DNA of 64,000 nt from Acididesulfobacillus acetoxydans (GCF_902729405.1 NZ_LR746496.1:4092001-4156000); one strand, 5' to 3'; positions 25,101-57,450 are shown, counted from the first letter of the stretch. Made by a program: numbers and translations. The notes: generated from the letters alone by a model not told the origin.

Positions 25101-25137
25101 ATGTGCAAGTGAGCATGAGTTTTGCTTCGGCAGGCAT
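19165..25137 (-). CDS. DUF4011 - SF1 helicase - Vsr/DUF559 nuclease - DUF3320 defence protein (Hhe-like)
   Basis: A 1990-aa multidomain protein. The N-terminus contains a transglutaminase-like Cys-His module (GTCLDLTLLYASCLEAIG, then EGHAFVAAWL, about residues 215-260). DUF4011 follows, then a superfamily 1 helicase with Walker A HGPPGTGKSQ, FDEASQMPT and ERDVILFSVGYG. Near residue 1650 is a Vsr/DUF559-type nuclease (YRLDLAVVHPEKPSEYLLG, TARDRELL, LGWNIHKVW), and DUF3320 is at the end. The usual IECDG element of that nuclease reads IVTDG here, so catalysis may differ or be lost. The domain order matches the single-gene antiphage helicase-Vsr proteins named Hhe. It lies next to fragments of a second copy (26130-26262). 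Confidence 0.85.
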   Translation of the reverse strand: MPAEAKLMLTCTYSSVVNYAMQQNHVPIIRELVVTNNMAHDLSNVAFRFSAAPEFAFPFEKRVAVLPPDQPVNVGLIDLQLSPAYLAALTERLSGTLLISAFCGDEVLHSETLSIDVLAFDEWGGYPFMPEMLAAFVTPNHPLISRLTAAASRVLKRWSGNSALDGYLSKDPSRVKLQVAAIYAAVQAENIIYCVPPASFERQGQRIRLCDTVLAQKLGTCLDLTLLYASCLEAIGLNPLIVILEGHAFVAAWLVDDCFPEAVQDDPSLLTKRLADGINQICVVETTACTEGKTIGYMEAQRLGVAHLSGDKEFVCLIDIKRTRAGGIRPLPMRVLTAEGWEVEAGERGQRALTEAPTGLHTALVPDEIVQAGTTPLTRQQQWERKLLDLSLRNTLLNFRVTAGTIRLLALNLGRLEDSLAQGSEFQILEKPTDWDNTARDARVFEIRNQLDPMQQLLEFEFQQKRLRTPLSEVELTRSVTNLYRSARTALEENGVSTLYLALGFLKWYEAPASQQVRYAPLVLVPVEIARKSAKRGYVVRSRDEETQMNITLLEMLRQDFELVIGGLDPLPTDEHGVDLRRILTIVRKAVMHMPRWDVSEEAFLGIFSFSQFIMWNDIRNRSEDLAKNKIVASLMSGKLEWLPEGITAAEADLDETYPPGHVFLPVSADASQLCAITAASEGKSFVLHGPPGTGKSQTITNIIANALAQGKTVLFVAEKMAALSVVQKRLEAIGLGPFCLEVHSNKTRKKDVLDQLGAAAETVKRRSPEEYREEGERLARLRTELNGYVQALHTRYPFDITLYDAIARFSHVSRAQDGVKFDQGVFATLSHRELNGWMDLAKELAVAGAETGHPHNHPLREICLTAYSQSVKASAQQLLEEYADVIRECAALAGEISRRLDFPDLLTSPLQVKALAEVSGLVPELAGVPVSMLKMDEVDGKVARIKDVLQHGERYRNLHQQISGIYRESVWDIDVQAMSAEWQKAGLRWFLPQAWERNHIKKALRQLALSKKGVSKEEIPAHLELISEAKKEREGMESRLPEVLPCLGVLWQDLQTDWQQVERKALAVAELERNLAIYTNRAEAGQIRCRFADVISEAGLDLKMFDQFQAASRRLFSLQGEVSRLLGIEMDAIRHEGVNWLGLLGQKTSSWLSGLEGLRAWCTWLNVRRKACEAGPGLTSLVEEYESGRLANDEVAAAFEKGLYRACAEFIISREPALNSFSGQLFEEKIRRFRETDTAFEELTRREIYARLAARIPDFLVEASKNSELGILRRAIKSNGRGLSLRMLFEQIPGLLPRLCPCLLMSPMSVAQYLDPKHTPFDLVVFDEASQMPTCEAVGALARGKNAVIVGDPKQLPPTSFFTSNRMVDEDILASGDLESILDDCLALAIPEAHLSWHYRSQHESLIAFSNRRYYENKLFTFPSPHDLVSKVSLRLVEGFYDRGKTKHNKAEAKAVVDEIVRRLTDPGVCGQSIGVVTFSSVQQNLIEDLLQDALSADPALEGHALAEEPIFIKNLENVQGDERDVILFSVGYGPDEKGRLSLNFGPLNRDGGWRRLNVAVSRARSEMVVYSTIRPEQLDISRTGAQGVADLKAFLEFAQKGKAALVVPADELEAGPSGSKAAALGISDLIASELREHGYTAKLDIGSSAYRLDLAVVHPEKPSEYLLGIVTDGRSYRSARTARDRELLQENVLRRLGWNIHKVWAVDWWESPEKEMKKILSVIEGLLEKGHPGDSDHRDELSPAKTKPFFSSGQNRGESDGRFEKQPARVAMEEEGAGHKTAGSVSTIPTAKVAAQMATRVNPYQRDYVIAVLPRHELSATEFCLPENAREIMQAIAEVIRVEAPISKSLLCKRVLQSFGIARTGARLERQFSHLFLKLKPSKTKKGQNTFFWRQEQAPQSLDFYRVAQNENARRSAEDLAPEETACAVRYVLMTEIGLPREELIRETARILGYHRLGRDVELAMKAGLEAAVKRGWAETEGDRVNIR

Positions 25138-26575: not shown

Positions 26576-26615
26576 AAAGACGGCCTCGCGGTTTTTTCTC
26601 CGCGAGGCCGTCTTT
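26576..26615. terminator. Bidirectional terminator between the repeat and fic
   Basis: Perfect 16-bp stem AAAGACGGCCTCGCGG / CCGCGAGGCCGTCTTT with the loop TTTTTTCT. The fic stop codon lies in the outer stem, so this hairpin ends fic transcription on the minus strand. Confidence 0.85.
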
Positions 26616-27531
26616 AGTCCTGCAGCAAGCGCAAATATTGGGAAAGCCTTTCCTTTACATACTCTCCCGCCATGTTCACCATCGGGGACGCGTCGTTATC
26701 CCGGTAATAGCTGTCAAAACAGGCGTAGTATTGTCTCCTGTCCGCGAACTTCACGTCGATGGGCGGGTAGCCTGCCTGCATCAGCATCAGGTTCAGAATC
26801 AGCCGCCCGGTGCGGCCGTTGCCGTCGATGAACGGGTGGATTCCCTCAAAATTCAGGTGGAACATCGCCGCCGTTTCTATGGTGTGTCGGTTGTCGTGGG
26901 ACAAATCCGAAACCAGCCGCTCCATCTGAACCGGGACAAGATAAGGCTGCGGCGGTTCGCGGTGTGCGCCCATAATTTTTACCGGGATTCTCCGGTACAC
27001 GCCCTTATCCTCCGGTCTGTCCATCAAAACAAGGGAATGGATTTCGCGGATGACCCTCTCCGAGATCGGAACCTTATCCTTGACGAGAGAAACCACATAA
27101 AGGAAAGCGTCGCGGTGCCCCACCGCTTCCAGATGGTCTTTCAGCGGCTTTTTATCGATTGTCACGCCCTCCAGCGCCAGCGCGGTCTCCTGCAGCGTGA
27201 GCATGTTGCCCTCGATGGCGTTGGAGTTGTATGTGAATTCCACGAGGAATTCGTCCTGCAGGCGCTTCAGTTCTCCCGCAGTCAGCGGACGGCGGCGGTC
27301 AAGCTCCGCCTTTATTTCATCAATCGACACGAAAAGCCCGGCGTATTGTTCCGGAATATCTTTGCCGCGCAGGCTGCGCCCGTCAATCGGCTTTAACGCG
27401 TCCTCCGGAATGAGGTAGGAACGCCCCTTCTGAACGACGCCCTCTATCCGCCCCTCGGCGCAAAGTAGGCGAACCCTGCGGTCTGATATTCCCCACCGCT
27501 CCGACGCCTGTTTGACGGTCATGTACTGCAT
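26614..27531 (-). CDS. Fic-domain protein with N-terminal helix-turn-helix
   Basis: 305-aa Fic enzyme, which typically transfers AMP from ATP to a target hydroxyl. The catalytic loop HPFIDGNGRTGR is at residues 232-243. The inhibitory helix motif SNAIEG (103-108) lies upstream, as in self-inhibited class II proteins. Residues 1-50 form a MerR/excisionase-like DNA-binding domain (YMTVKQASERWGISDRRV), so it may regulate its own gene. ATG 27531 has GGGAGG nine bases before it; the two in-frame upstream codons lack such a site. Its sequence is intact. It could be a regulator, a toxin held by its own inhibitory helix, or part of the adjacent defence cluster. Confidence 0.9.
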   Translation of the reverse strand: MQYMTVKQASERWGISDRRVRLLCAEGRIEGVVQKGRSYLIPEDALKPIDGRSLRGKDIPEQYAGLFVSIDEIKAELDRRRPLTAGELKRLQDEFLVEFTYNSNAIEGNMLTLQETALALEGVTIDKKPLKDHLEAVGHRDAFLYVVSLVKDKVPISERVIREIHSLVLMDRPEDKGVYRRIPVKIMGAHREPPQPYLVPVQMERLVSDLSHDNRHTIETAAMFHLNFEGIHPFIDGNGRTGRLILNLMLMQAGYPPIDVKFADRRQYYACFDSYYRDNDASPMVNMAGEYVKERLSQYLRLLQD

Positions 27532-27556
27532 CGCTTCACCTCCCAATCTTTTTTAT

Positions 27557-29889: not shown

Positions 29890-30059
29890 CCAACAGAAAT
29901 TATGACATCCAAATTGTAGTAATCAACGTGATATGTTTTACCGTCAGCAGCAGTTGTTGCAAAATTTGCAACAACTGAATTTCTTATCAGTTCACCTTCG
30001 TTGAATATATTTTTAATGTGGCGAGAAATGGTAGATTTATCACGCTGAAATAACTTTTT
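29890..30059 (-). pseudogene. RhuM-family protein fragment
   Basis: A minus-strand frame reads LFQRDKSTISRHIKNIF, then SVVANFATTAADGKTYHVDY and YNLDVIISVGYQ, the conserved N-terminal region of the RhuM family. It is then joined in frame to the leader of the YdcF gene. Its own start and C-terminus are missing. A striking palindrome at 29951-29977 lies within this coding fragment. Confidence 0.75.
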
Positions 30060-30192
30060 GGACCCGTATGAGGACTACATATCGAAATATCAACAACCCT
30101 ACAAAACACTGCTTTGATACGGGTTTGAACAAAAAACGCTATATGAACACATGGCCCATCTCGATGACTTAAAGCAGGAAGAGACAAACCCT

Positions 30193-30355: not shown

Positions 30356-31516
30356 CTACAAATTCGAAGTTGCTCTAAAAATCTTGTCGTATGCATTGCA
30401 AACGGCAAAAATGACAGACTCCACTTCCTGCATGGTGTTGTATTTGCCATACGAAATGCGAATCGCCGATTTGGCTTGTTTCTCAGACAATCCCAACGCC
30501 ATTAGCACATGAGAAGGTTCATCTTTACCCGATGTACACGCAGAACTCGTTGAAACGCAAATACCTTTTAAATCCAAAAGGTGCATAAGAGATTCACCTG
30601 AGCTGTTTTCAAACGCAATATTAACTATTCCAGGCAAGCGGTTTTCAGGATCACCATTGACACAGATATTCGGTACTTTAGCTCTAATACCATCTATTGT
30701 GGCTTGGACAAAGGTAACTAATCTATTAGCAGTTCCCCTCATATCCGAAATGTTTTCTTCCAGCGCATATCCAGCGGCTACTATCCCAGCAACGTTCTCG
30801 GTACCTGAACGCAGTCCATACTCCTGTTCTCCTCCAAAAACAATTTGCGGCACTGAGATGCCTGAGCGCTTGTATAGGATGCCTGTACCCTTAGCACCGT
30901 TGAACTTGTGAGCAGAGGCAGCAAGAAAATCCACATAAAGTTCATTAACATTTACAGGTATATGGCCCATTGCTTGAACGGCATCAGTATGAAATAGTAT
31001 ATTTTTGTCACGCAAGTAGCGGCCAATCTCAGCTATCGGTTGAATTGTGCCGATTTCGTTGTTAGCCAGCATTAAAGAAACAAATTTTGTATCAGGTCGT
31101 ATAGCCGCTTTTAGATTATCTAGTGTTACACGACCAACCCTATCAACAGACAGGTAAGTAACATCAATGCCTTTTTGCTCAAGAGCGTGACAGGCACGCA
31201 GTACAGAATGATGTTCAATTCCGGAGGTGATAATGTGGGTACCCTTGTTACCGAACAGCACTGGTACGCTTGACAAGACCCAGCTATTACTTTCTGAGCC
31301 GCCAGAGGTGAAAATAATATTATTTCGTTCTGCACCAATTCCAACGGCAACTTGTTCTCTTGCTTGTTCGATGGCCCGTTTTGATTTCATTGCGAGCGAA
31401 TACTGGCTCGAGGCATTACCATATTGTTCTTGTAAAAATGGAAGCATTTTTGCAAACGCCACATCTGACATTTTTGTTGTCGCAGCGTTGTCGGCATAAA
31501 TTAGTTCTCTCGGCAC
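30356..31516 (-). CDS. Cysteine desulfurase (NifS/DndA-like), last gene of the BREX-like operon
   Basis: 386-aa PLP enzyme that removes sulfur from L-cysteine as a persulfide. It has the N-terminal YADNAATT, PLP-binding Lys K204 in SAHKFNGAKG, the catalytic loop Cys C327 in STSSACTSG, and RISYG near the end. GTG 31516 follows GAGG at seven bases, and the gene starts nine bases after the brxL stop, so it is in the operon. In Dnd phosphorothioation a cysteine desulfurase feeds the PAPS-reductase-like DndC. BrxP, five genes upstream here, has the same PP-loop/Fe-S chemistry, so this protein is the obvious sulfur donor (inference). A housekeeping IscS is less likely, given the absence of iscU. 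Confidence 0.93.
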   Translation of the reverse strand: MPRELIYADNAATTKMSDVAFAKMLPFLQEQYGNASSQYSLAMKSKRAIEQAREQVAVGIGAERNNIIFTSGGSESNSWVLSSVPVLFGNKGTHIITSGIEHHSVLRACHALEQKGIDVTYLSVDRVGRVTLDNLKAAIRPDTKFVSLMLANNEIGTIQPIAEIGRYLRDKNILFHTDAVQAMGHIPVNVNELYVDFLAASAHKFNGAKGTGILYKRSGISVPQIVFGGEQEYGLRSGTENVAGIVAAGYALEENISDMRGTANRLVTFVQATIDGIRAKVPNICVNGDPENRLPGIVNIAFENSSGESLMHLLDLKGICVSTSSACTSGKDEPSHVLMALGLSEKQAKSAIRISYGKYNTMQEVESVIFAVCNAYDKIFRATSNL

Positions 31517-31525
31517 ATTACCACC

Positions 31526-32974
31526 TCAATACTTGTATCGAATGTTTGGTACATTCCTTTTTCCCGGTACGTCAAACTCTTTAGGGTCAACGATACAGAG
31601 CTGTTTTTTAATAGCGCCTCTCATTTCCATTGCCGGTTCGAGGCAATACTCAACGAATTCGTCAGGGTCTATATCCTGTTTCGACTTAGCCTGTGGGAAA
31701 AGGAGCTTGACAAATCCTGTGCAAAGCCGCTTAATGGCAGTCAAATCGCGCATATCAGGTCTTTCAGGTATATCGAGACATTCTTCAACGATTGCAGCGT
31801 AAAGCATTTCATCGCGCAAAGAATGAAGAACCTCCGCGAAATATTCCGTATTCAATGCCCAACCGTCAGCAACTAGGCCTCTATGCATACGAGGAATTTC
31901 CCATCCCGGAATAAATCCATGAAACCGATCCAGTGTGGCAGACTCACGAAAAATCGGATTGATTTCTTCAACCATATTAGCACTGGTGTCAAATCTTCCG
32001 GCATCAATATTGCCCAGAACTATAATTCCTGCATCAGCTTCGGTCTTTGAATCAAACCCTTTTACCTCGCCGAACTCCATGTAGTCTTTTAACGCAGTTT
32101 GAATCTGTCCGGGCTGATCGAACTTCATTGTTTGAATTTCATCAAAAGCAACGAAGTCAAAGCGTGTAATAAGACCGCCAGTCTTCTTTGCATTATCATA
32201 GATTAGAGAAGCGCGTGATACAGTCCCACCTGAAATTAACCAACCTCTCTTACTTATTTTATGATAGATATAGCTCTTTCCTGTGCCTTTGGGCGCAAGC
32301 TCTATAAGATTGATGCGTCGCTCGACAAATGGCAATAACCTACGCAAGACAAATAGTTTCTGGCGCTTGGTTTCATATCCGTTAGGATTATAGTCTGCAG
32401 AAGAAATAAGCACATCTATCCATTCTTCTGTAGAAAACTTCTCGCGACCTTCACGATAAACATTTATGTCAACTGTATAAGGACAAAAAGGACTGTAGTC
32501 TTCCATGGAAACGTAACCATTTGCCTTTTTTCTCGAATAATCTCTATTCCATATTAACTCAACAATACCCCAATTCTCGTTCTCTCTTAGCAGTGTATCC
32601 TGCCATTCGTCAACGACAGAGTATTTTACAATGCCCCCCGCACCTGATCGGTTCCCACCGAAGTCCGGAAGCTCAAATGTGGTTTTGCCCGTTCTTATAT
32701 CTACCGCGACACGAATTCTCGCCAAAAACCGCACAGATTCGCCGTTTATAAGCCGAAACTTTAACTGTTCAAAGTCGTCACGATTAGGTATATATGTTTT
32801 GATGTACGAAGAGACACGCTCTATGTCAGTTTCCCCTGTTGAATCAGAAAACTTCATAACAAGCCAGTCACGCATATAAGACGGCAAGCTAAGATTAGAG
32901 AAGAACTCTGTTCGTTTGGGATTTTTTAGAACCACCATATCTGGAAAGACTTCTCTTATTCTTTGGCTATTCAT
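31526..32974 (-). CDS. brxL: BrxL, short form (AAA+ BREX protein)
   Basis: 482-aa BREX ATPase. After an N-terminal region (REVFPDMVVLKNP, FSNLSLPSYMRDWL) the AAA+ core has Walker A APKGTGKSY, Walker B FDFVAFDEIQTM and a sensor region LGNID. It ends CIVDPKEFDVPGKRN. It lacks the C-terminal Lon-type protease domain of the about 680-aa type I BrxL, which agrees with the shorter family version. ATG 32974 (MNSQRIREVF) has GGAG seven bases upstream; earlier in-frame codons overlap the small upstream gene. BrxL is thought to act in phage restriction in BREX systems. Confidence 0.88.
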   Translation of the reverse strand: MNSQRIREVFPDMVVLKNPKRTEFFSNLSLPSYMRDWLVMKFSDSTGETDIERVSSYIKTYIPNRDDFEQLKFRLINGESVRFLARIRVAVDIRTGKTTFELPDFGGNRSGAGGIVKYSVVDEWQDTLLRENENWGIVELIWNRDYSRKKANGYVSMEDYSPFCPYTVDINVYREGREKFSTEEWIDVLISSADYNPNGYETKRQKLFVLRRLLPFVERRINLIELAPKGTGKSYIYHKISKRGWLISGGTVSRASLIYDNAKKTGGLITRFDFVAFDEIQTMKFDQPGQIQTALKDYMEFGEVKGFDSKTEADAGIIVLGNIDAGRFDTSANMVEEINPIFRESATLDRFHGFIPGWEIPRMHRGLVADGWALNTEYFAEVLHSLRDEMLYAAIVEECLDIPERPDMRDLTAIKRLCTGFVKLLFPQAKSKQDIDPDEFVEYCLEPAMEMRGAIKKQLCIVDPKEFDVPGKRNVPNIRYKY

Positions 32975-32988
32975 AATCATGCTCCAAT

Positions 32989-33180
32989 CTACAAGAATAA
33001 AGTACAACCTTGTTCCTTAAATTCCTGTATCTTTATTCTTAAGTCATCACAATTACATTCGAGGTATTCGGCTAAACAATTTATGCAGTATAATTCGCAA
33101 TTTAAGTCGATTAGCTTTTTTGATAGAGCGACCTCATCTTTTTTAAGAGGCCTATTGCACTCAGAACATCTTTTCGACAT
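32989..33180 (-). CDS. 63-aa zinc-ribbon protein between pglZ and brxL
   Basis: Small protein with paired cysteines: CSECNRP at residues 5-8 and CINCLAEYLECNCDDL further on, enough for one zinc ribbon plus additional ligands. Its ATG overlaps the pglZ stop as TAATG, a classic coupled arrangement, and brxL starts 15 bases after its stop. The position inside the operon argues that it belongs to the system. I do not know it as a described BREX component. A protein- or DNA-binding adaptor is plausible. Confidence 0.8.
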   Translation of the reverse strand: MSKRCSECNRPLKKDEVALSKKLIDLNCELYCINCLAEYLECNCDDLRIKIQEFKEQGCTLFL

Positions 33181-35534
33181 TACGGCAAACCTCCCATACT
33201 TCCTTTACTAATACCTACAGTAATAACAGGGAGAACTGCCTCTTGGGGAAGCACCTTCCCGTTAGCGGTTATCGATAGTTCTATTGATGCACCTTCAAGT
33301 CCTGTAAAGTTAATACTCCATTGTTTTTCATCTATTCTAGAACAAATACAAACTCCGTTTGAGGAAGCAATGTCGAGAGTATCAACAGAGCGGTTAAAGC
33401 TGATTTCAATACTTGCCTTACCGCCCCTTTTTGCGAGCTTTTCGGCAGAAAAAACATAATTAAGGGGTTTGGGCACGTTCTTTCTTTTTAAAACTACAAC
33501 AGGTACAATACATTCTTCTGGGGTCATACCACCATGTATTTCGCCAGCTACTGCATTTTCATCAGAATTTCCCCCAGCAGCATTACCAGATTGCTTGTAA
33601 TGTTCGTAGTCTTTCATGACTAAATACTTCTTATCATTGAATCTACACAAAGCAACGTTAGGTAGAAGGTCTTCATCTCGTAGCTCTTTTGTCAATTCAC
33701 AAAAGCGACCATGAGACATCGGTATTGCGCCTGGGGGCGCAAATGTAGCTAATTCATGGAATGCCAATGCAGCAAGGCGACTGCTCCCGTGGTCACCCGT
33801 AATTATTACAAGGTCGTTGCTTTCAAGAAGCTCGACAGCTTCATATAGCATCTCACAAACGGTCTGAATTTGGGCCACAATACACAAGAAATAATCCGAG
33901 TCATCCGGTACACCCTTGTGAGCAAGAGTATCTAACCGGTTGTGTTTTATATATTTAAAATCATTGTCTGCCCATTGCTCATTGAAGGCAGTTTCAGACG
34001 GAAGTCTTGATATAGCGATATTAGATGTGAAATCAAAAAGATCGTTCGTCTTTTTATCGAGAACTGCACATATCAATGACAGCCATTCAATACCCAAACC
34101 ATCCACCCACAACGCCTTACAATCTGAACCGTTATACTTAGCGAGGATAGAATAGCGAGCATCAATACTCTCGACATCGAAGGTTGAAATCGGGGATTTT
34201 ACCGGGCGGTTAATTAGCTTACTTTTCTTATACCAGCCAAAATAGTCTGTAAAAGATTTGTATTGATGACGCGGGGTCTCAAGATAGTATGCCAGCTCTG
34301 GGTATAACCCTTTTAAGGCAGTGATAAGTCTATCAACGGTATCTGCCGTTGAACTTAATCTCAACCATCGGCTTACAGTTTTGACAATAAAAGCACGTTC
34401 CTCTTGGGACTGCGCTGTAAGTAGGCCCAAAGCTGTTTCTGGCATACGTTTATCAAGGGCATCAAAAAACTTACTTGAAGGCACAGCATTTCTCATGCCT
34501 TGCATGATACCTCTGCGCTGAGTAATCCAGTCCTTATTATCTGCATAGAGAATAATGTCGTTGGCAATATGAGTAGCAGTATCCTGTAAATCATTAGGTG
34601 AGAGATTATGGATAATCGTACCGGCATAATCTTTCGGAGAATATAATTGGTGCCAAATCCAAGCGTACCACCGTTCTATGTCATCAAGATTCTCCCATTG
34701 AGAGACGACGCTAATGCTATCATAATACTTCAAATTCAGTGTCGCAAGAATTGCATCTGCGACAGATTCATTTCTTTGCGTATCACTGAGAAGCCTCGCC
34801 CAATAATCATCAGGTGCGCAACTTGATGGAATCATTGAAATCCCCGGCTCCATCCCACACAGGAATTCATAGGGACTTTCGATTATATTTACAGAGACTT
34901 GACCATATGTCTTCTCACAATCCTTGAATCGGGCAGTTACAAGAACCGGCTGCTGGGTTGACAATGCCTCCACCCAGTTCAAAAGCCAATTTTTAAAGCC
35001 TACGATTACGCCACGATCAGCAAGAGTATTTTTAAACCTATCTGAATATACTATCACGTTATAGTGATCACTGGAATCGTCATCTAGACTCCACAAAAAA
35101 TCTCCTTGCCTCTCATCTACTTCTTTTACGACTCGTTCAAAAAGTTCTTTTGCGGCAAAGACGGGAATAAAAACCCGAATCTTGGAGTCCACAGAATATT
35201 GTTCACACCAGAAATCACGAAACTGCGCATATTGTGGATCTGTAGTTTCTCGAATTATTGCCAGTCGGAGATATTCTCCGATGGATAGAAGCAATATGTG
35301 CTTATCTGCCTCTCCCTTAATACGTTTCATCAATTTCGAGAATTTAGGATGTTTATCATCATCACCGCAGAATTCAGCTAAATTCAGCGTCAGCTCGCAC
35401 GAAGTTCTCAGCCATAATACAAGAGCATTATACTGCGCAAGGCTATTGCAAAAAATTAAACGGATAGGATAACGGGAGGTGATATTATGTTCCTCCTCAA
35501 CTTTTTTCTGTATCTCTTCTCTCTCAATCGACAA
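33180..35534 (-). CDS. pglZ: PglZ, BREX phosphatase-fold protein
   Basis: About 784 aa. The C-terminal half is the PglZ alkaline-phosphatase-superfamily domain: ALWVDGLGIEWLSL (first metal Asp), VIITGDHGSSRLAALAFHE, and GEIHGGMTPEECIVPVVVL. The N-terminal half (RYPIRLIFCNSLAQYNALV and following) is specific to this BREX type. The frame is open into the end of brxC. No ATG is available near the gene border, and TTG 35534 gives an 11-base overlap with brxC, the most economical start. PglZ is a core protein of all BREX types and is needed for modification. It is followed by the zinc-ribbon gene through a one-base overlap. Confidence 0.9.
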   Translation of the reverse strand: MSIEREEIQKKVEEEHNITSRYPIRLIFCNSLAQYNALVLWLRTSCELTLNLAEFCGDDDKHPKFSKLMKRIKGEADKHILLLSIGEYLRLAIIRETTDPQYAQFRDFWCEQYSVDSKIRVFIPVFAAKELFERVVKEVDERQGDFLWSLDDDSSDHYNVIVYSDRFKNTLADRGVIVGFKNWLLNWVEALSTQQPVLVTARFKDCEKTYGQVSVNIIESPYEFLCGMEPGISMIPSSCAPDDYWARLLSDTQRNESVADAILATLNLKYYDSISVVSQWENLDDIERWYAWIWHQLYSPKDYAGTIIHNLSPNDLQDTATHIANDIILYADNKDWITQRRGIMQGMRNAVPSSKFFDALDKRMPETALGLLTAQSQEERAFIVKTVSRWLRLSSTADTVDRLITALKGLYPELAYYLETPRHQYKSFTDYFGWYKKSKLINRPVKSPISTFDVESIDARYSILAKYNGSDCKALWVDGLGIEWLSLICAVLDKKTNDLFDFTSNIAISRLPSETAFNEQWADNDFKYIKHNRLDTLAHKGVPDDSDYFLCIVAQIQTVCEMLYEAVELLESNDLVIITGDHGSSRLAALAFHELATFAPPGAIPMSHGRFCELTKELRDEDLLPNVALCRFNDKKYLVMKDYEHYKQSGNAAGGNSDENAVAGEIHGGMTPEECIVPVVVLKRKNVPKPLNYVFSAEKLAKRGGKASIEISFNRSVDTLDIASSNGVCICSRIDEKQWSINFTGLEGASIELSITANGKVLPQEAVLPVITVGISKGSMGGLP

Positions 35535-38500
35535 AGAATTTATACAGTTCAGGAAAACTATCAAATGCTGTGAGTATCCGAGTTCGCAATTCAGCTTCTT
35601 GCAAAGTGTTGACTTTATCTCTTGCAACTGCTTTTACTTTGTCGGCGAATTTTGCTTTTAGGAAGCCTTCTATCAGGCCCACTATTTTTGCTCCCTGATT
35701 TGCCCATGCATGGACGTCTGCTCCACATTCTAGCCTTATCCTTCCTAACAAATCATCACGATAGTTGGTAAACCCTTCGCAATTTTTTTCTCCTATTTGC
35801 TCAAAGAACTTATTTTGAATAAAATTGACATCCTGCAGATAAGCAAAGTTCTTACCATTTAGATAATGCACAGCATTATTGAGTTCCTTTTCACTTACCA
35901 ATCTTCCCGCGTTGACATTTAGCACGCAGTCAAAATACTGCAAATCTTCGGGGGACGCGACCCATTGAATTGGTACATTGTATTTCCTGCACCAGTCTTT
36001 TATTGTCTTTGTCCCACCGATTTCAAGCCATCGCGTCAAAAGAAGCGTTTTACTATGTTCGTGCTTAATGTCTCCAATCAGTGGCTTAATCATTGATTCA
36101 TAAACCGGCACAGAGGTGGCATATGGGCACTCATTGATACCACCAAACACCTTCACCAGATCATCTTCATTATAAATGACACCTTTTTTATCTAGGTATT
36201 TAGCAAGGAGATTTTTTGAGCTACTGAGGTTCTGCCATGCATCTCTGGCATACTCTTTGAAACAGTCAATAATAGCTTGCTTTTGATTTGCCGTTAGATT
36301 TTGCCAAGGGGTCAACGTAAGATTACGCATTTCAGCAAGGGCATGAAACCACGGCGCATCAAGCGTTTCAATAACCGTACCAGGAACCTTCATTAAATCA
36401 AAGCAGTTTTTTAGAGATTCTATATGCTTAGCCAAAGTCTTTTCGCTTACACCTAGTGCCTTATTCAATTCAGCTATGACGCCATATTCCAAAGTCAAAG
36501 TAGATAACTTTGCTTTAACTTGTTCTTCTTCCCAAGTTTCAATCGCTTTTTGCATAAGCCGCTTAATCGCATCAAATAAATCGTTATCGTTCAGCTTAAG
36601 AGTGGCAATAAGCAATCCTAAGTCACTATCTGCTGACATGATAATAAAAGACTTGAAAGCAGAATAACGGAGCGCATCATTTTTGAAATTGGCATTTAGT
36701 GCTTGCCTTATCTTACCTTTTCCGGTAAAAAGGCTCACAACTTTTGCCATAATATCTTCTTGGTTATCCTCGTTTCGATTTAAAACAAACAAACTGAAGT
36801 TGTCGATTATGCTATCGTAGACGGCTTTATTCTCTATACCGCCGGTTTCATTAGTGTCAACATATTTTAAAGCCCATAGAGGCGTACCACTGTAAGTAAT
36901 TTTGCTAATTAGATAATGACGTGCCCTTTCCTCATTAGGGACTTCATTATCTTGAAGTTCAAATACACTTTTAAGATACGGCTTAAACTTTTGCCATATC
37001 TCCGAGCCGGAAGAAAGCGTATTGTTTGGAACTTTGTCTTGGCACATATTGTTTATCATTGTTGCCAAGTTGTTATCGTTCAAAGGAAAAGGGTTGGAAT
37101 CACTATTCACCCAATTAAATTCGCTGTCTTTCCAAAAACGGAAAACAAAACCCAACAAATAAGCACAGGCTAAGTTGTTGTAATAGCCAAACGGCGGTTT
37201 TTGCAAATTCAACCAGAGCTGATCAAGACGGATTTTTGCACCTTGTGTCATTTTTCCATGAATGAACTTTGCTAGCTCTGCTATTGTCTTGGCACCAACT
37301 GAACCAGTCGCTGTTTCAAGTAATTCTATCGAAGTGCACCCCCAGACTTTTGCACCGATTACACCTGTCTCTATGCTCTTAATTTGTGCACTCTTCGACT
37401 CGCGAGTTATCCCAGCAAGTGCTGCACTTTCTTGCGCCCGTCTATATGCTGTATTAGTCAATACAACTTGTTCAGGCGCAGCTGGAAACATAGTAAATAT
37501 TACGTCCTGCTTAATATGGCGCATTAGGTCTCCGCTACCGAAAATGGATCGATATGTTTTAGAACCATAAAAGGCTACTAACTGCTCATTAGTCGCATTG
37601 CTGCTCCACGATTCAAGGATCGTTCCCATTTCCTGTTCAAATTTACTCTTCGAGCCTTGTAAACCGTCTTCATTTGCCAGTTCAACATGCGTTTTTGCAC
37701 GAAGCCAATCTTCCAAAGTCTGTGCAGCAAGCTCTTTTTTTAGGATGCAAAAAACTAATCTTCCAGTTTTATCATTTTTTATATACTCTTGCAACTTCGT
37801 TTGTGTAGGTACAAAGTGACTTGGTTCGGCAATAACTACAACTAAAAGACCGACCTTGTACTGGAGTCGGTTTAGTTCCGCTTGCAATTCGTTAAATCGC
37901 TGGTTCAGCGAATTGGTTTCTTCAGTACAAGCAGCGATGTACATTCTACCAAAAGTCGCGTCGGTTTTGCTCCAAATCTTGTCTTCGACAGTCCTTGCGA
38001 ACTCACCATTCTTTTTAAACAGCTCATAACGAGTATATCGTTTTTGAATTTCTTCCAACCGAACATCGAACTTCTCAACATTTCTGCCATATGGTAACTC
38101 AACTCTGGCATCCCTGCTACCAGATATTTGAGCCAGCATAAGAATATTGCTGTCGTGGAAAGATTGAAGATAATCGTCTACACGGCTTTCTACAAGCTGC
38201 CCAACAAAGCACTTTCTGAGAGTGCTTCTCGTTGCATCAACTTTACTCGAACCGCCCTTTGTGTAGGTGACTTTGTCTGTAGCCATGATAGCTATCAGCA
38301 GAAGTGCAGCTTTGAATACACGCAGTGCATATTCATCGCTTTCCACGAGAGTTTTTTTCTGTCCGTAAAGTTGATAAGCGCGACGCGCATCCTGACTAAA
38401 ACTACGAATATCAGAGTCGGCACCAAAAAAGTAATCCCACAGATAATCGATCGTCAGCCAACGCCAGTCTTCAGGGCCGTTTGTCTCAATATAATAGAGG

Positions 38501-39726
38501 AAGCCCACATTTTGTTCGGACTTTGCTTGGTCTTTCATAAAGCTGAAAAGAGTCCGGGAAGCTGCAGCAAAATTCCCAGAAACTTTTGTAAGCAGACTAA
38601 GCGTCATCGGATGAATAGGACACAGCTGAATCAGCTGATCTTTTTTAAGCCCATAAGAAACCTCGTCAAATTCTGAGATTATCTCCTTTACAAGACTGTT
38701 TCTAACTGCATTCCAGTTATCCTCCATACCTTTTTTACATTCGATGGATTCACCGATCATCTCATAAGCAGCACTTTCGCTAATATGAAATTCTAACTCG
38801 TGATACCGGTGCATAATACGGTTATATGTGTCTTCCCCAAGTGCACTTAACCAACTTGTGTCAACGTGAACGATAAGAAACATGAAAAACGGCTGTTTCT
38901 TGCAGTATTCGGACAATCTTTGAAGCACATTATCATCCCCGCTGCTACGAACAAAGTCTGTAAACTCGTCCCACAAGAAGACTATCCCTTTATCCTGCAG
39001 ATGGTTCTCAACAATGGCATCGGTTATCCAGTGTTCGAAATTCTCAACAGAAGCAAACATCGCCCAGCCTTTGTCTCGGCAAATTTTCGCGACAGTATTA
39101 CAGGCCTTAATATCACCACCCAGAACGTCGTCTTTAAAGCTATCAAAGTCTTCATAATCGTCTTCAAGCCGATATGAAGGCTCTCCAAAAATTGCATTCC
39201 AATTGTATGCTTTATCGGAAACAATACGTTTTGCTTCGTCCACTAAGGAATTACGGCCGTAACAGGCATTTTCTCCAAAACGTTCTTTGAGAGCCTTCCT
39301 GATGCTCATTTCCATTTCCATCATCAGCTGCGTACCCGTGGCAATACCCGTACAACCGCTCTTCCACACAACCAGAAATTCACCCTCACCCCTATTGCGA
39401 ATGGACAAGAATTTATTCTTGTATGGAGTTAAAAGTCGTTTGCGGTCAAAGAAATTCTCTATGTTATTAATTGAGTCAGTGAACAGATGCTTTAGGACAA
39501 TAGCGGCATAGCTTTTTCCCGTACCATAAGTGCCATGAATCCAGAAAGAACGCCTTTGGTTCGGATCTTCCATCTTCAAGCTGTCGCAGATTTTCTCTAC
39601 GGAAATTTTCATATCATCATGTACGATATATTCCTGCCATAAATTCGGATTCCTTTCCTCACTGCCGATATCCACGACAGATTCATAACCAGGGCGCAAT
39701 TCAATGTATCTGCTATACTTGGCCAT
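35524..39726 (-). CDS. brxC: BrxC-type large P-loop ATPase
   Basis: 1400-aa ATPase, the size and architecture of BrxC/PglY. Walker A is HGTYGTGKSY (K71) and the Walker B/DE motif is IVFLWDEFTDF, followed by FFMFLIVHVD. The N-terminal phrase RRSFWIHGTYGTGKS is typical. The long C-terminal part is helical with no enzymatic motif. ATG 39726 has GGAGG eight bases upstream and lies 15 bases after the brxP stop. BrxC is thought to use ATP to assemble or move the modification complex along DNA. Confidence 0.9.
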   Translation of the reverse strand: MAKYSRYIELRPGYESVVDIGSEERNPNLWQEYIVHDDMKISVEKICDSLKMEDPNQRRSFWIHGTYGTGKSYAAIVLKHLFTDSINNIENFFDRKRLLTPYKNKFLSIRNRGEGEFLVVWKSGCTGIATGTQLMMEMEMSIRKALKERFGENACYGRNSLVDEAKRIVSDKAYNWNAIFGEPSYRLEDDYEDFDSFKDDVLGGDIKACNTVAKICRDKGWAMFASVENFEHWITDAIVENHLQDKGIVFLWDEFTDFVRSSGDDNVLQRLSEYCKKQPFFMFLIVHVDTSWLSALGEDTYNRIMHRYHELEFHISESAAYEMIGESIECKKGMEDNWNAVRNSLVKEIISEFDEVSYGLKKDQLIQLCPIHPMTLSLLTKVSGNFAAASRTLFSFMKDQAKSEQNVGFLYYIETNGPEDWRWLTIDYLWDYFFGADSDIRSFSQDARRAYQLYGQKKTLVESDEYALRVFKAALLLIAIMATDKVTYTKGGSSKVDATRSTLRKCFVGQLVESRVDDYLQSFHDSNILMLAQISGSRDARVELPYGRNVEKFDVRLEEIQKRYTRYELFKKNGEFARTVEDKIWSKTDATFGRMYIAACTEETNSLNQRFNELQAELNRLQYKVGLLVVVIAEPSHFVPTQTKLQEYIKNDKTGRLVFCILKKELAAQTLEDWLRAKTHVELANEDGLQGSKSKFEQEMGTILESWSSNATNEQLVAFYGSKTYRSIFGSGDLMRHIKQDVIFTMFPAAPEQVVLTNTAYRRAQESAALAGITRESKSAQIKSIETGVIGAKVWGCTSIELLETATGSVGAKTIAELAKFIHGKMTQGAKIRLDQLWLNLQKPPFGYYNNLACAYLLGFVFRFWKDSEFNWVNSDSNPFPLNDNNLATMINNMCQDKVPNNTLSSGSEIWQKFKPYLKSVFELQDNEVPNEERARHYLISKITYSGTPLWALKYVDTNETGGIENKAVYDSIIDNFSLFVLNRNEDNQEDIMAKVVSLFTGKGKIRQALNANFKNDALRYSAFKSFIIMSADSDLGLLIATLKLNDNDLFDAIKRLMQKAIETWEEEQVKAKLSTLTLEYGVIAELNKALGVSEKTLAKHIESLKNCFDLMKVPGTVIETLDAPWFHALAEMRNLTLTPWQNLTANQKQAIIDCFKEYARDAWQNLSSSKNLLAKYLDKKGVIYNEDDLVKVFGGINECPYATSVPVYESMIKPLIGDIKHEHSKTLLLTRWLEIGGTKTIKDWCRKYNVPIQWVASPEDLQYFDCVLNVNAGRLVSEKELNNAVHYLNGKNFAYLQDVNFIQNKFFEQIGEKNCEGFTNYRDDLLGRIRLECGADVHAWANQGAKIVGLIEGFLKAKFADKVKAVARDKVNTLQEAELRTRILTAFDSFPELYKFFVD

Positions 39727-39741
39727 TTATGATCCCTCCAA

Positions 39742-42075
39742 TTACTGAGCAAGATTGAGGATGTCAATCAAATTAATATCTCTGCACAGTATGACGTTGT
39801 CAAGGTTTACTTGAAAAGAAACTCGGATAAATTCTTCAAATTGTAAAGCCAACGACTGTAATATTTCCTTTAAATTATCATCTGAAATTCCGAAAATAGC
39901 GCCGGGATCAACCCCGAGCCAGTTGGCGTTCCTGCGATTCTCTATCATCGTTTTGTGGAGTGAAAACGTATATTCTCCCGTAGCTTCCGCCCATTTATAC
40001 AGAGAAAAGAGGATTGCCACGGCGTTCGGGCTTTCCCAGCCTGACTTGGAAAACTTGTATGATGCACCTGTGGAAATAGGAATACCTTGCTTCAATGTTG
40101 AACCTATTGGGCTATGGCGAAACGTCTCTAACAAAGCCGTAATCGCATTGTCACGGGTGGATTGCGAGTAATCATCGCCGAGCATAAACACAAGGTCGTT
40201 CTTCTCATATACCTCGCCAACAGGGGCATATAGCATATACCACTTACAAATGACGGAATTGTAAGCGAGGTTCGTCCAAATAATCGCCCAAACAACTGGG
40301 TTAAAAGGTCCCAGTGGCTCCAGCTTTTCAAACAATGCTGTCGGGGTCCCGGACTTATCACCTTTATTATTCGGATACAAAAGCTCAGCCTCCTTGAGCC
40401 AGACCTTTAACGCGTCGTATTGCCTGTTGCCTAGAACACCCATATTGAAGCATTCGCTCTTATAGTCGAAAAAGTGTTCAAGAAATTCGCGTCTCAATCC
40501 AAAATGTTGATACCTATTCATCCCTTTAAGCTCCATTCCGGAACCTCCTGTCGTACTTAATGATTTTGCGGCTAAACAACCTTTTCCGCCAGTAAATTCT
40601 ATGCAGTTACTGCAATGAACACATTTGTCCTCCCGAATAAAAATATGATTACTATCATCTACCAAAAATGCGTTACAGGGACATTGTACCATACAAGCCT
40701 TGCAACCAAAGCAATAAGCCACTTTATTTGCTATTCCTCTTAAATGGCTTATTACAAATCTATCCATTAGTTTATATGGTGAATAGGACACGCTCTTTCT
40801 GTCATCTGAAATACAGAAAGCATACTCACGATTAGCTATTAATTGGATTCCTTTGTTACCGTCTCGCTCCACGATAGGTCCTAAAATCACAACGACAGAT
40901 AACCAATCCTGCTTTCTCTCTGAAAAATGAAATGTAATAGCATCTCCATTTATTGTTTCTGAAACGCGGTTTCCTCCATTTGGTAATCCACGTCCACCCA
41001 TTCGCGCTTTCCAGCCACCTTGCTCAATGAACCTCTTTTGTTCTTTCGGGGGCTTAGTTAGCTCGGCATATTTCTCGACCTTTTTTAATAAAGGTGCTAG
41101 TTCTTTTCCGTAATAATCATTTGTTATACCGTCCCACCAACTAGAAGACATAGGACACACCATACAGCCAACACGAAATAATCCTTGCCTGTACGCCTGA
41201 TTAAAAAGGATATTTCGATGTATCAAATAGAGATAAAGTTCACCTGTACTCCATTTTAGAATAGGACTGCAATTGATTTGATTGATGTTTTTTGCGCCAA
41301 CGCTTGTTTCGATATAGTTTGCCCGTTGGGCACTTTCTTCGCGACGAACGCCATCAAACACCACCGCCTTAACATCGTAATTGCCAGTAATCTCCCGCAT
41401 AGTAAGTATAGTAGGCACAGACTTATGTACCGAACAACACCATCGCATCCTTCTTCCCGGCGGCCCAAATTCACCCCAGCTTTTCTCCGGGTTCAAATGG
41501 CTCTTTGCTTCAAGAAAACGAAGATCTGGCCAATGCCTTTTTGCTTTCTCGACAGCTTCAATTGTACAGCTTAATTCCATACCCGTATTGTTAAATATAA
41601 CATAAAACTCACCCGGCGACAATGCGCGGCTTACAAGGTCCAAGAGAACGAGTGAGTCCTTCCCGCCACTGAAAGCGACAACAAAAGCATAACCTTGTTT
41701 TGCGTACTCGTTGTATGTTTTCCGAATAAACGACTTCGCGGTATTCTCCAAACCGAACATTATCTCCTCGTTCTGCTTCCACAACGCCTTAACATCAATA
41801 GGCTCAAGAGTCAAGTCCATTTCGTTCACCACAATTTGTGGCTTGGAATAGAACCCACCACCTTTCGCTTCTGCGACGCAACGACCGTCTATTACATAGC
41901 GACGTATTCCTTCCGCCCATAAAAGAGGAGCTTTGGTGTCCGGGTATGTCCAATAGTGGTTCATCCCGAAATAGTCTAACTCTTCTTTGAAAACAGGACG
42001 TATCTCCTTCTGAACTTTACCGTTTATGACAAGCGCGTATATTCCGTTTTGCCTAGTCCATTCGTATGCGTACAT
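39742..42075 (-). CDS. brxP: BrxP: PAPS-reductase-like PP-loop protein with Fe-S ferredoxin domain
   Basis: 777 aa. The PP-loop SGGKDS is at residues 136-141. Conserved cysteines WCCSVHK (213-214) and GCMVC (304, 307) match the Fe-S site of PAPS reductase/DndC relatives. A two-cluster ferredoxin domain follows: C455, C458, C461, C465 and C485, C488, C491, C500. The about 280-residue C-terminal part is unassigned. ATG 42075 (MYAYEWTRQNG) has AGGA seven bases upstream. This type of protein replaces the methyltransferase in BREX type 4. With the operon's cysteine desulfurase it suggests sulfur insertion into DNA, as in Dnd systems (inference). Confidence 0.88.
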   Translation of the reverse strand: MYAYEWTRQNGIYALVINGKVQKEIRPVFKEELDYFGMNHYWTYPDTKAPLLWAEGIRRYVIDGRCVAEAKGGGFYSKPQIVVNEMDLTLEPIDVKALWKQNEEIMFGLENTAKSFIRKTYNEYAKQGYAFVVAFSGGKDSLVLLDLVSRALSPGEFYVIFNNTGMELSCTIEAVEKAKRHWPDLRFLEAKSHLNPEKSWGEFGPPGRRMRWCCSVHKSVPTILTMREITGNYDVKAVVFDGVRREESAQRANYIETSVGAKNINQINCSPILKWSTGELYLYLIHRNILFNQAYRQGLFRVGCMVCPMSSSWWDGITNDYYGKELAPLLKKVEKYAELTKPPKEQKRFIEQGGWKARMGGRGLPNGGNRVSETINGDAITFHFSERKQDWLSVVVILGPIVERDGNKGIQLIANREYAFCISDDRKSVSYSPYKLMDRFVISHLRGIANKVAYCFGCKACMVQCPCNAFLVDDSNHIFIREDKCVHCSNCIEFTGGKGCLAAKSLSTTGGSGMELKGMNRYQHFGLRREFLEHFFDYKSECFNMGVLGNRQYDALKVWLKEAELLYPNNKGDKSGTPTALFEKLEPLGPFNPVVWAIIWTNLAYNSVICKWYMLYAPVGEVYEKNDLVFMLGDDYSQSTRDNAITALLETFRHSPIGSTLKQGIPISTGASYKFSKSGWESPNAVAILFSLYKWAEATGEYTFSLHKTMIENRRNANWLGVDPGAIFGISDDNLKEILQSLALQFEEFIRVSFQVNLDNVILCRDINLIDILNLAQ

Positions 42076-42099
42076 AACATCTTCCTCATGTGGCAAATT

Positions 42100-43959
42100 C
42101 TATTTTCCAAGGATTTTCACCGAATTATTATCGCTTGCCCAAGCGAAACGTCTATCTTTTAACGCTTTGTGCATGTTGGAAATCAATTCGTTCCCTTCAA
42201 TCATACCAATTCGCTTCAGCAATTCCCGTAGCTCCTCTGCTGCAAGGGGCTTGGGAAAGGGCAGTAAGTTTTCCACAACCAAATAAGCGTAGACAAGATC
42301 AGCAAAGGCATTGATAACCGAATCTTGCGGGACAATACCGGCTTTGATTGTATCTAGACTCTGCCCATCTAACGCCTGGATTGTCCGATATTCAGGAATA
42401 AACTTTTGGATCACCTCTTGCAGAAGAAGGAGCTCCCAGTTCAAACCCAGGGGGAGAGTAGGTAATCTATTAAACCAATGTGTATTTAGCCCTCGCAGTA
42501 TAATATAGGGACGGTCTTCTAAGACAAGGTTGAGACAGGCCTTGACTTGCCCAAGCCAGTGATCGTCAATGTCTAAAACTTCACATAACAGGTATTCACC
42601 CGGCCTATATTGTAAGACATCCCGGTTATTCTCAACCCGCAGTAAGCCATTGATATTTCCGCTGGCAATTTTGAGTTTATCCAGATAATTTGCACACTCG
42701 TCTCTCGTAGCTTTACCCCCACAACTCTGTATAAATGACATGAGAACACCGCGTATGTTTTTAGGCATTACGGATTCAGTCTCCCAAATATGTTTGTTAC
42801 CATAAAACACGAGGTTATTTCCCGCATATTTTTCAACAGAGAAAATATGTCGTGCCAAGTAATAGACTTTTTGGGGTTCGGCTAAATTATTATCGTTAAG
42901 GAACATCGGTAATTCAATGGCTAGCGCATCGAAGAAGACAGTATCCGTTGTGTAACCATTAAACATCCAAAATTGCATTTTCAAAATCTTAAACATTTTT
43001 TCGGCCGCCTCGTCGAAATCTATAATGCAGTCACGATGAATGTAGAGGTGGTCGGGCATAGTAACCGCCCATTTTGCAGAATCTAAAAAGGCTTTTATCG
43101 GATTAACCCCGCGTCCGGTAGGCGATACATACGCAACAATATCGTCAAGCTTTGCGCCACATATATCAGCAGATTTAATGAAGCTCTCTATTTTTGTTAA
43201 TTCGTTTTGAAAATCCTCTACCAATGGTTTTCCCGCATACACATCAGCTTTGTTATCGGGTTCCTGTACATTCCGGGCATCTAAAAGATAGTAAAACTTT
43301 TCACCCTTCGCGTCAACCGTACAACGGAAATAGTCTTTAGTCGCACGATATGTATAATTGGATCCCTTACATGCACTTTCAATTTGAATTCGTACTACAT
43401 TAAGCGGATTTTTCGCGCCGAAAGAATAAAGTTCGTTCTCAATAATCTTATTATAAATCTCTCCAACAGTCATTCCTCTTTGCGATAACTGCAAAATTTT
43501 GATTACAGCTCCTCTTATTGTTAACCGTTCACTCACTTGGGAATTAATTCCTATGCTCTGATTCGAGGCTTTAAGAAGCGACGGTTTACTCTTCAAAAAT
43601 CTTAAAAAAGCCTGTCCCACCTGAACAAACGTGGCATATGTCTTTTTATCAGTTGCTCTAAACTGCTTGTCATTCAGGGCTTTATCGTAGATGCTTTTGA
43701 ATAGCTCAAAAGTCGTGAGCTCCCACAATCCTACCAAAGATAACTTTCTGCGGATAAGGTAGGCAGAAACTTTATCAATACAGGACAGGTAAATCGCGGG
43801 AGAATACTTTTTAGCGTGTCCGTCGAAAAGCCATTCAGAAAAAGACTCCTTAACCATAACCAGTGAAGAGGACGCACTTTCAACGGTGTCATTTGTATTA
43901 GATTGCTGTCCCACTCTTACCACTTCCCTCAGTTTTCTCTTTTTACTTTCCGTGTCCAT
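42100..43959 (-). CDS. HARE-HTH protein with integrase-like N-terminal domain, first gene of the operon
   Basis: 619 aa. Residues about 35-125 resemble the SAM-like core-binding domain of tyrosine recombinases (YSPAIYLSCIDKVSAYLI, TYATFVQVGQAFLRFLKS) but no catalytic integrase domain follows. Residues about 150-230 look like a HARE-HTH domain (IRGAVIKILQLSQRGMTVGE, NPLNVVRIQIESACKG, YYLLD). The rest has no motif I recognise. The ATG lies four bases after the stop of an excisionase remnant, and brxP follows at 24 bases. HARE-HTH domains are predicted to sense modified DNA, so a reader or regulator role is a reasonable guess, not shown. Confidence 0.7.
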   Translation of the reverse strand: MDTESKKRKLREVVRVGQQSNTNDTVESASSSLVMVKESFSEWLFDGHAKKYSPAIYLSCIDKVSAYLIRRKLSLVGLWELTTFELFKSIYDKALNDKQFRATDKKTYATFVQVGQAFLRFLKSKPSLLKASNQSIGINSQVSERLTIRGAVIKILQLSQRGMTVGEIYNKIIENELYSFGAKNPLNVVRIQIESACKGSNYTYRATKDYFRCTVDAKGEKFYYLLDARNVQEPDNKADVYAGKPLVEDFQNELTKIESFIKSADICGAKLDDIVAYVSPTGRGVNPIKAFLDSAKWAVTMPDHLYIHRDCIIDFDEAAEKMFKILKMQFWMFNGYTTDTVFFDALAIELPMFLNDNNLAEPQKVYYLARHIFSVEKYAGNNLVFYGNKHIWETESVMPKNIRGVLMSFIQSCGGKATRDECANYLDKLKIASGNINGLLRVENNRDVLQYRPGEYLLCEVLDIDDHWLGQVKACLNLVLEDRPYIILRGLNTHWFNRLPTLPLGLNWELLLLQEVIQKFIPEYRTIQALDGQSLDTIKAGIVPQDSVINAFADLVYAYLVVENLLPFPKPLAAEELRELLKRIGMIEGNELISNMHKALKDRRFAWASDNNSVKILGK

Positions 43960-43963
43960 AATC

Positions 43964-44123
43964 TACTCTGCATCTTCCGAATCGCCCTTAGCCGCTGCGC
44001 CGCCAGAGCGAATCCAATCATCAACCTCGGAAATCTTGAATTTCCAAAGCCGGCCGACTTTGTGAGCGGGCATATTACGGTTACTAATCCAGTGCAGAAC
44101 AGTTTCCCGACTTACATCAATTT
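43964..44123 (-). pseudogene. Excisionase-family helix-turn-helix fragment
   Basis: The minus-strand frame reads IDVSRETVLHWISNRNMPAH and KVGRLWKFKISEVDDWI, the second half of a small excisionase-type DNA-binding protein, ending SGGAAAKGDSEDAE four bases before the HARE-HTH gene. A TAA stop lies immediately before IDVSRETV and no start exists, so the N-terminal strand is lost. A rare start codon that keeps it functional cannot be excluded. Confidence 0.65.
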
Positions 44124-55280: not shown

Positions 55281-56389
55281 TCATGGACTGGCGGGAGCGT
55301 GTTTGGGAAAAACAAGCGCCACCACGTCAAGACTTCCACAGGCAGGGCAAGACTTCGCGTGTTTCTTAAGGTCCGGGATCGAGGGCCCGCTTCCAGTAAG
55401 ACGTCTGCATTTTGAAAGCAAGGTATGGATATTCCGGCTGCAAAGGATGCCATAATGCCGGATCTTGATAAATCGATCTGGGAGGACATGCAGAAGAAAC
55501 CTTCGGGTAAACTCGGCCGCATCCAGGGTCATCACTTTCGATTTACCGTTGTCTTTATAATCCTTCCAGGCAAAACGGACAGAATGGCCGTCAAAGGACA
55601 GAATTCTAGAATTGCTAATCGCGACCCTGTGGGTATAACGGCCAAGATAGCGAACGACGTGCCCTGGAGACTTGAAGGGCTTCTTAGAAAAGACAACCCA
55701 GGGGGTGCGATACAGTGGATCGATCAGGGAAAGGAAGTGACTTGGGAAGGCAAGTTGGGCAGTCTCATTAAAGAAGACCAATTCCCTCTTGTCGTAGGCC
55801 TGTTTGAGAAGGTAAAGAAACTTACCTCTGAACTTGTTAGAAATGACTTTTACAGGGATGAAGAATTTCTTGCGGGAATAGACAAAGCGAAGGCCGTCGT
55901 TAGCAAGGCCGCCGCCCGGAACAATACAGTGAACGTGAGGATGAAAGGATAGGTTCTGGCCCCAGGTATGAAGGACTGAAGTCACTCCGATCGTTGCGCC
56001 GAGGAATTTACGATCTTTAGCCAGTTCAGTGAGCGTCTGGCCGCTTGCATCAGGATAGAGTAGAGAAGCTTCTGATTCTGAAAAACGGGGGTATTCAGGG
56101 CCTGAGGGAGGGTAAACACGACGTGAAAATAGCCCACCGGCAAAAGTTTGGTCATCTGAGCTTCAACCCAGTCTTCTTGAACCGCGTGTTGGCATTTGGG
56201 ACAATGCCGGTTACGACAGGAGTTGTAAGAAACATCCACGAAACCACACTCTGTGCAGACTTCGGCAGGGTAGCCGAGGAGTGAAGTTCGACAGTGACGA
56301 ATCATGTTGAAAGCTTTGGCCTGAGCCGGAGACATGGCCTCAAGATGGACCTGATTAAAGATATCCTGCAGTTCAGGCATTGGGATCAC
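55281..56389 (-). pseudogene. IS91-family transposase, frameshifted
   Basis: The N-terminal frame (56389-55982) has the zinc domain CTECGFVDVSYNSCRNRHC and PKCQ. The C-terminal frame has the HUH motif FHPHVHCIVPGGG and the tyrosine region VVRYLGRYTHRVAISNSRIL. The frames join if one base is restored near 56034 (family reading TLTELAKDRKFLGATIGVT). Rolling-circle type DNA nicking enzyme; inactive as read. Confidence 0.85.
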
Positions 56390-57233: not shown

Positions 57234-57450
57234 GATCATCATCCTTTCTAAGTCAAATTTGGGGACTAAGAAGGCATCGTGTCTCAAATTAAAATAGTGG
57301 GCTATTGGCTAATCCTTAGCCGCCGCGCAGCGGTTTAGTACAATAAGATGAGAATGAATAACTCGCTTTCGACAGTCCGTAGACACGGGAAGTGCCTCAA
57401 ACCCTTATGGCATCTGGGCTTCAGGCACTTGTGGATAACGTACCGTGTAC

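Follow-up and report, generated by a model that had tools for sequence, protein, structure and literature searches.

The first gene of a type 4 BREX operon in Acididesulfobacillus acetoxydans encodes an array protein in which a constant C-terminal domain, tied to operons that carry brxP, is joined to DNA-binding blocks that are exchanged between operons. Because of these two properties we propose, tentatively and at somewhat less than even confidence, that this protein is the target-recognition subunit of the system, which has no PglX for that role. This component is what is new here, the rest of the operon being of a known type. It bears on what picks the phosphorothioate (PT) site in type 4 BREX, which works without PglX, and offers a concrete, testable candidate.

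The operon occupies positions 30356-43959, on the minus strand, of the 64,000-nucleotide stretch of DNA that was analyzed as a whole (hereafter the window). A preliminary description of this DNA had reported seven close minus-strand genes with no PglX or other methyltransferase, and both points hold: the seven genes lie where it had placed them, in a compact arrangement in which they abut or overlap, and no methyltransferase is encoded within the operon. The first gene (42100-43959, 619 aa) is followed, all on the minus strand, by brxP (39742-42096), encoding a PAPS-reductase-like PP-loop sulfurtransferase with ferredoxin-type cysteines and a C-terminal DUF4007-like region; brxC (35524-39726), encoding a P-loop ATPase with GTYGTGKS at 65 and LWDEF at 251; a pglZ of the BREX-4 type (33180-35627); a gene for a 63-aa zinc-ribbon-like peptide of the form CxxC...CxxC (32989-33180); a short brxL with BrxL_N and ATPase domains (31526-33007); and a cysteine desulfurase gene (30356-31516). 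Type 4 BREX is recognized by a BrxP that replaces the methyltransferase, here identified with 750 bits by the profile PDLC02510, and by BrxC, a type 4 PglZ and BrxL in one operon, all of which are found; the linked cysteine desulfurase, an optional feature of the type, is present as well. The GC content of the operon is 41.6%, compared with 53.4% and 50.3% in the flanks, and this AT-richness suggests horizontal acquisition. Directly upstream of the first gene lies an excisionase-like HTH frame, apparently without its N terminus (43963-44121, minus strand), whose membership in the system is uncertain; small HTH ORFs homologous to it precede the first gene in four other loci (L043, L047, L059 and L098).

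The core proteins were assigned by profile searches. BrxP matches its PADLOC profile with an E value of 6e-226 and the Pfam family PAPS_reduct (PF01507) with 2e-28. As already noted in the preliminary description, it carries an SGGKDS PP-loop, Fe-S cysteines and a ferredoxin-type domain, and these features are invariant in nine BrxPs, with 12 conserved cysteines made up of a CC...CxxC set (C220, C221, C311, C314) and eight of the ferredoxin type. Residues 527-781 match a second BrxP profile (265 aa) with an E value of 4e-20, Pfam DUF4007 reaching only a sub-threshold 0.24. That the first gene itself corresponds to DUF4007/BrxA is not the simplest reading, given that the DUF4007-like region is this C terminus of BrxP. 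A search of viral contigs for BrxP relatives found none. BrxC matches its PADLOC profile (E = 5e-68) and also SspC profiles (E = 3.5e-20), PglZ matches the BREX-4 PglZ model NF033445 (E = 1e-87, 295 bits; cut-off 140), and BrxL matches the short-form PADLOC profile (E = 6e-183), with no further C-terminal domain detected by profile scans beyond BrxL_N and the ATPase. Since the pglZ ORF overlaps brxC by 104 nt, the true start of PglZ may lie further downstream. Across homologues, the zinc-ribbon peptide keeps its C..C and C..CLA motifs as well as a C-terminal GC.LF, which provides a conserved extra cysteine besides the two CxxC pairs.

The brxPCZL genes have been placed with dnd and ssp among the gene families for PT synthesis, with reference to Yuan et al., the main paper on PT modification by type 4 BREX, and antiviral activity has been ascribed to type 4 BREX (PMC11931770). 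In a January 2026 article, type 4 BREX is presented as PT-based, a DndA-like cysteine desulfurase is counted in 255 of 457 type 4 taxa (56%) and put forward as a potential sixth core component, a small zinc-finger protein is said to accompany this desulfurase often, BrxP is equated with SspD, and DUF4007, described as a BrxA-like, tripartite DNA-binding protein, is given as a type 4 component equated with SspB (PMC12839542). In type 4 loci the DUF4007 component is often fused to BrxP. The first-gene array protein is not described in the type 4 section of the same article. The central inference of the preliminary description, sulfur marking of DNA with a linked desulfurase, is already published, and its label of a BREX/phosphorothioation “hybrid” was the wrong word, because type 4 BREX is in its own right a PT system.

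The operon desulfurase has DndA and SspA as its best PADLOC profiles, with near-equal scores of 446 and 441 bits (E = 3e-134 and 9e-133), and NifS as its best NCBIfam model, with a score below the equivalog cut-off of that model. The two residues previously reported as intact, K204 (within SAHK) and C327 (within SSACTSG), are indeed present and are invariant, together with H102, in 43 operon desulfurases. To survey BrxP loci, genome contigs were scanned with a nine-sequence BrxP alignment, and the best 80 matches were kept along with nine loci from the window's class, a choice of best matches that biases the sample to window-like BrxP. A survey for linked desulfurases had been suggested in the preliminary description, and in this one the gene is present in 45 of the 59 assessable window-like loci, including one (L111) with a divergent copy on the opposite strand. 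That the linkage is unique to the window genome is thus ruled out, both by these loci and by the tree described below. In a sample of the phylum drawn evenly and not by similarity, 4 of about 13 assessable operons have the desulfurase (the window, G079, L168 and L170). The zinc-ribbon peptide is commoner than the desulfurase in the window-like survey (55 of 55 assessable loci with a fused BrxP, 1 of 4 with a split BrxP) and occurs where the desulfurase is missing; its gene is also missing from several operons of the phylum sample.

We then placed 43 operon desulfurases in a quick tree together with 12 others, all of the latter coming from the class of the window; neither DndA nor SspA was part of the set. 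Forty-two operon sequences and one labelled as other (L135) form a single clade (SH-aLRT 99), with the sampled housekeeping enzymes outside it, as is the L111 enzyme. L135 sits directly after brxL and a zinc-ribbon gene on a broken contig, and since it too lies in an operon, the clade is purely operon-linked. The dedicated sulfur donor of the preliminary description is supported by the linkage and by the distinct clade, but many loci have no desulfurase, so the enzyme is dispensable. In one of them, G048 (L156:346-2923), about 20 desulfurase codons follow the zinc-ribbon gene and run into a group II intron-like reverse-transcriptase ORF, a remnant that looks like desulfurase loss. The operon is, very probably, a PT-BREX core whose desulfurase is dedicated to it yet dispensable. 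The link to the desulfurase bears out an idea already in print, and the phylogeny lends further support to a dedicated donor.

The main task of the desulfurase could alternatively be the assembly of BrxP's Fe-S clusters, the sulfur in DNA then not coming directly from it and being available from IscS/NifS. The 12 invariant cysteines of BrxP would fit such a role, as would the loci without a desulfurase, among them the one with the interrupted remnant, and the presence of other class V aminotransferase/desulfurase homologues in the window genome. A single operon-linked clade extending across several phyla argues instead for a dedicated role, although it does not indicate the acceptor, and we regard cluster building as the main function as possible but doubtful.

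The first gene is the most unusual of the seven, and the preliminary description had passed over it. Its C-terminal domain (aa 262-619; 42100-43176, minus strand) is tandem winged-helix-like and lies beside brxP. In 69 of the surveyed loci, brxP is directly preceded by a gene whose product has a related domain of ~310 aa at its C terminus. Searched with an alignment of this domain, 83 genomes of the class yielded it in six, always beside brxP and never in a genome without brxP. Among 398 genomes of the phylum, all eight strong matches (E below 1e-50) adjoin brxP, which in one case runs off the contig end, and three genomes have weak matches (best E 3e-24 to 3e-15) that are not beside brxP. A different C-terminal domain, 45-53% identical to L043, is found in the upstream protein of four class genomes. 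This second type is perhaps distantly related to the first, a profile comparison of the two subfamilies being suggestive only (hhalign probability 46%, E = 2e-4). The first C-domain occurs in 7 and the second in 2 of the 15 phylum-sample genomes with BrxP, so the first gene is common in type 4 BREX, not universal. As for the remaining genomes, one type 4 operon has upstream of brxP a gene for a sigma-70-like protein with regions 1.1 to 4 (L159:13627-15108, minus strand), nothing was recognized at this place in the others, and no such gene is visible in L161. Proteins with sigma region 1.1 also stand upstream of brxP in three loci (L071:9299-9928, L073:2134-3054 and L074:9170-9844).

The N-terminal region, which in the window protein (aa 1-261; 43177-43959, minus strand) consists of an integrase-SAM-like helical block and a HARE-HTH winged helix, is hypervariable and exchangeable. 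Where it exceeds 120 aa its length ranges from 172 to 1103 aa, with some values truncated because the contig stops there. In pairs of operons whose BrxPs are 60-70% identical, similarity between N-terminal regions is detected in 54%, over a median of 42% of the shorter region; in the same pairs BrxC, PglZ, BrxL, the desulfurase, the zinc ribbon and the C-domain are detectably similar over their full length in 100%. At this level of BrxP identity, 37 of 80 pairs share nothing detectable N-terminally, and another 21 share a block whose distance from the C-domain differs by more than 50 aa. Even above 70% BrxP identity, blocks are displaced in 10 of 21 pairs and permuted in 3. In L054 and L055, with BrxPs 88% identical, the same two blocks stand in opposite order, residues 10-243 matching 124-358 and residues 250-355 matching 10-115. 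The window N terminus has no detectable similarity to those of L054, L055 and L125 (BrxP identity 68-70%), and is 54% identical over 226 aa to that of L043, an operon in which BrxP identity is 30% and the C-domain belongs to the other subfamily. Errors in gene models cannot easily account for such displaced, permuted and swapped patterns.

The recurrent Pfam matches in 52 first-gene members are DNA-binding modules, namely Sigma70_r4 (7 members), HARE-HTH (5), RNAP alpha-CTD (4) and integrase SAM (4 and 2). Self-comparison of the first-gene protein revealed no significant internal repeats. PADLOC matches are scattered in these members (for example HNH in 2 and MzaA in 4), and the idea of a nuclease effector, with HARE-HTH fused to an REase, was rejected, as Pfam and PADLOC found no recurrent nuclease domain in the 52 members. 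For the window protein, described earlier as a HARE-HTH protein, the Pfam match falls short of the threshold (23.6 bits, cut-off 25.9), while the fold model does contain a winged helix at that place. This AlphaFold2 model (mean pLDDT 86, pTM 0.62) has a helical block at 30-124 and the winged helix at 148-225, and in our reading its C-domain appears to repeat a winged-helix-like pattern of secondary structure about five times. VIA-align related it to forkhead, linker-histone and bacterial winged helices with Z scores of 7-8.5, which shared architecture alone can produce, and a Foldseek search of the PDB returned nothing at an E value of 1e-3 or better. In the model of the L055 protein (mean pLDDT 85) the N-terminal blocks are helical and alpha/beta; the VIA-align matches, of middling Z and mostly to winged helices, barely cover these blocks and did not identify their folds.

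Cysteine desulfurases take sulfur from cysteine, and the operon enzyme would do so as a member of this family. BrxP, a sulfurtransferase of the Fe-S ATP-pyrophosphatase type that carries a ferredoxin-type domain of its own, would then insert the sulfur into the DNA backbone, in line with what is known of its family and with the published PT activity of brxPCZL. By analogy with other BREX types, BrxC may scaffold or translocate, and PglZ and BrxL would act against unmarked invading DNA. We envisage that the first-gene protein docks on the BrxP/BrxC core through its C-terminal winged-helix domain, while the exchangeable blocks at its N terminus choose the site to be marked. In type 1 BREX, BrxX/PglX recognizes the BREX site, a binding step required for methylation as well as for defence (PMC11842806). 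Because specificity there comes from PglX, which is absent from type 4, we propose the first gene as its source. Counting against target recognition, not every type 4 operon has the gene, the structural matches have only middling Z scores, and the DUF4007-like region of BrxP is a rival, or second, candidate for the choice of site.

Two other roles for the first gene need to be weighed. It might be a sensor of invaders, or a trigger: on binding phage-specific DNA or other features, its variable blocks would activate PglZ/BrxC, the PT motif being set by the DUF4007-like region of BrxP or by BrxC. Fast evolution fits such an arms race, operons without the first gene exist, and the tripartite, BrxA-like DNA binding ascribed to DUF4007 in PMC12839542 agrees with it; however, the recurrent modules bind DNA and are not diverse ligand sensors, and the permutation and swapping of blocks resembles the exchange of target-recognition domains, which makes a sensor unlikely in our view. 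Still less probable is that the protein, built from polymerase-associated modules, regulates the transcription of the operon or of phage genes. The recurrence of Sigma70_r4, RNAP alpha-CTD and HARE-HTH modules speaks for it, as do the sigma-70-like gene of L159 and the sigma region 1.1 proteins of L071, L073 and L074 in the same place, but regulating a single conserved operon does not call for a hypervariable array of permuted blocks as long as 1100 aa, and the strong matches to the C-domain are confined to brxP neighbourhoods.

The surroundings of the operon contain further genes of interest. Beside it, on the minus strand, are encoded a 1990-aa protein matching the PADLOC candidate PDC-S37 with 1268 bits (19165-25137) and a Fic protein (26614-27546; PF02661, SoFic/PDC-S04 profiles), because of which the locus looks like a defence island. 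Downstream of the operon, at about 29900-30100 (minus strand), is what we take to be the end of a RhuM-like protein (KLFQRDKSTISRHIKNIFNEGEL...), an apparent remnant that runs into the start of a DUF218 ORF. The window also contains, both on the minus strand, genes for a tyrosine integrase (56373-57287) and an HNH endonuclease-like protein (60722-61618).

Compared with known systems, the operon resembles the type 4 BREX of PMC12839542 in having BrxP, BrxC, PglZ_4, BrxL, the desulfurase and the zinc-finger peptide and no methyltransferase; it differs in that the zinc-ribbon gene precedes brxL in the window and its nearest relatives, whereas it follows brxL in most loci. With Dnd (DndABCDE) it shares a cysteine desulfurase and a PAPS-reductase-like sulfurtransferase, but instead of DndD and DndE it has the AAA+ protein BrxC, PglZ and BrxL, and a search of the window genome gave no DndC match. 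The likeness to Ssp (SspABCD) lies in BrxC, which matches SspC, and in the desulfurase, which matches SspA; unlike Ssp, the operon has PglZ and BrxL and a BrxP fused to the DUF4007-like region, and PADLOC found no SspE/SspFGH in it.

Distant relatives of the array protein lead to another Dnd-like kind of system, CxC-ABC ATPase/PbeABCD. The genes of two large proteins that are weak C-domain relatives (1320 aa in G462, L164:4491-8453; 1156 aa in G392, L166:6532-10002; both plus strand) immediately precede those of strong homologues of PbeA and PbeC (PADLOC ~750-920 bits). These systems differ from the operon in their HKD-helicase and DndD-like ATPase and in the absence of BrxP, and no DndC match was found in the two genomes. 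CxC-ABC/Pbe systems have a small fast-evolving protein, PbeB, and the consulted passages on Pbe systems make no mention of a large array protein beside Pbe (PMC10853773). The recurrence of C-domain relatives beside PbeA/PbeC homologues suggests a wider family of array proteins that may serve several DNA-marking or DNA-scanning systems.

The specificity subunit of type I restriction systems, HsdS, combines a constant part with two target-recognition domains on coiled coils. Pfam and PADLOC scans of the window protein and the 52 members gave no match to the HsdS family, and the first-gene proteins differ from it as winged-helix arrays of variable number. The likeness is one of design: a constant part conserved with the enzyme core, and DNA-binding parts that can be exchanged and are swapped from one operon to another. 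Many type 4 operons may possess an HsdS-like subunit, with a docking winged-helix C-domain and shuffled blocks that set the PT motif, and with relatives that serve CxC-ABC/Pbe-type systems, a generalization that we hold with slightly less assurance than the role proposed for the first gene itself.
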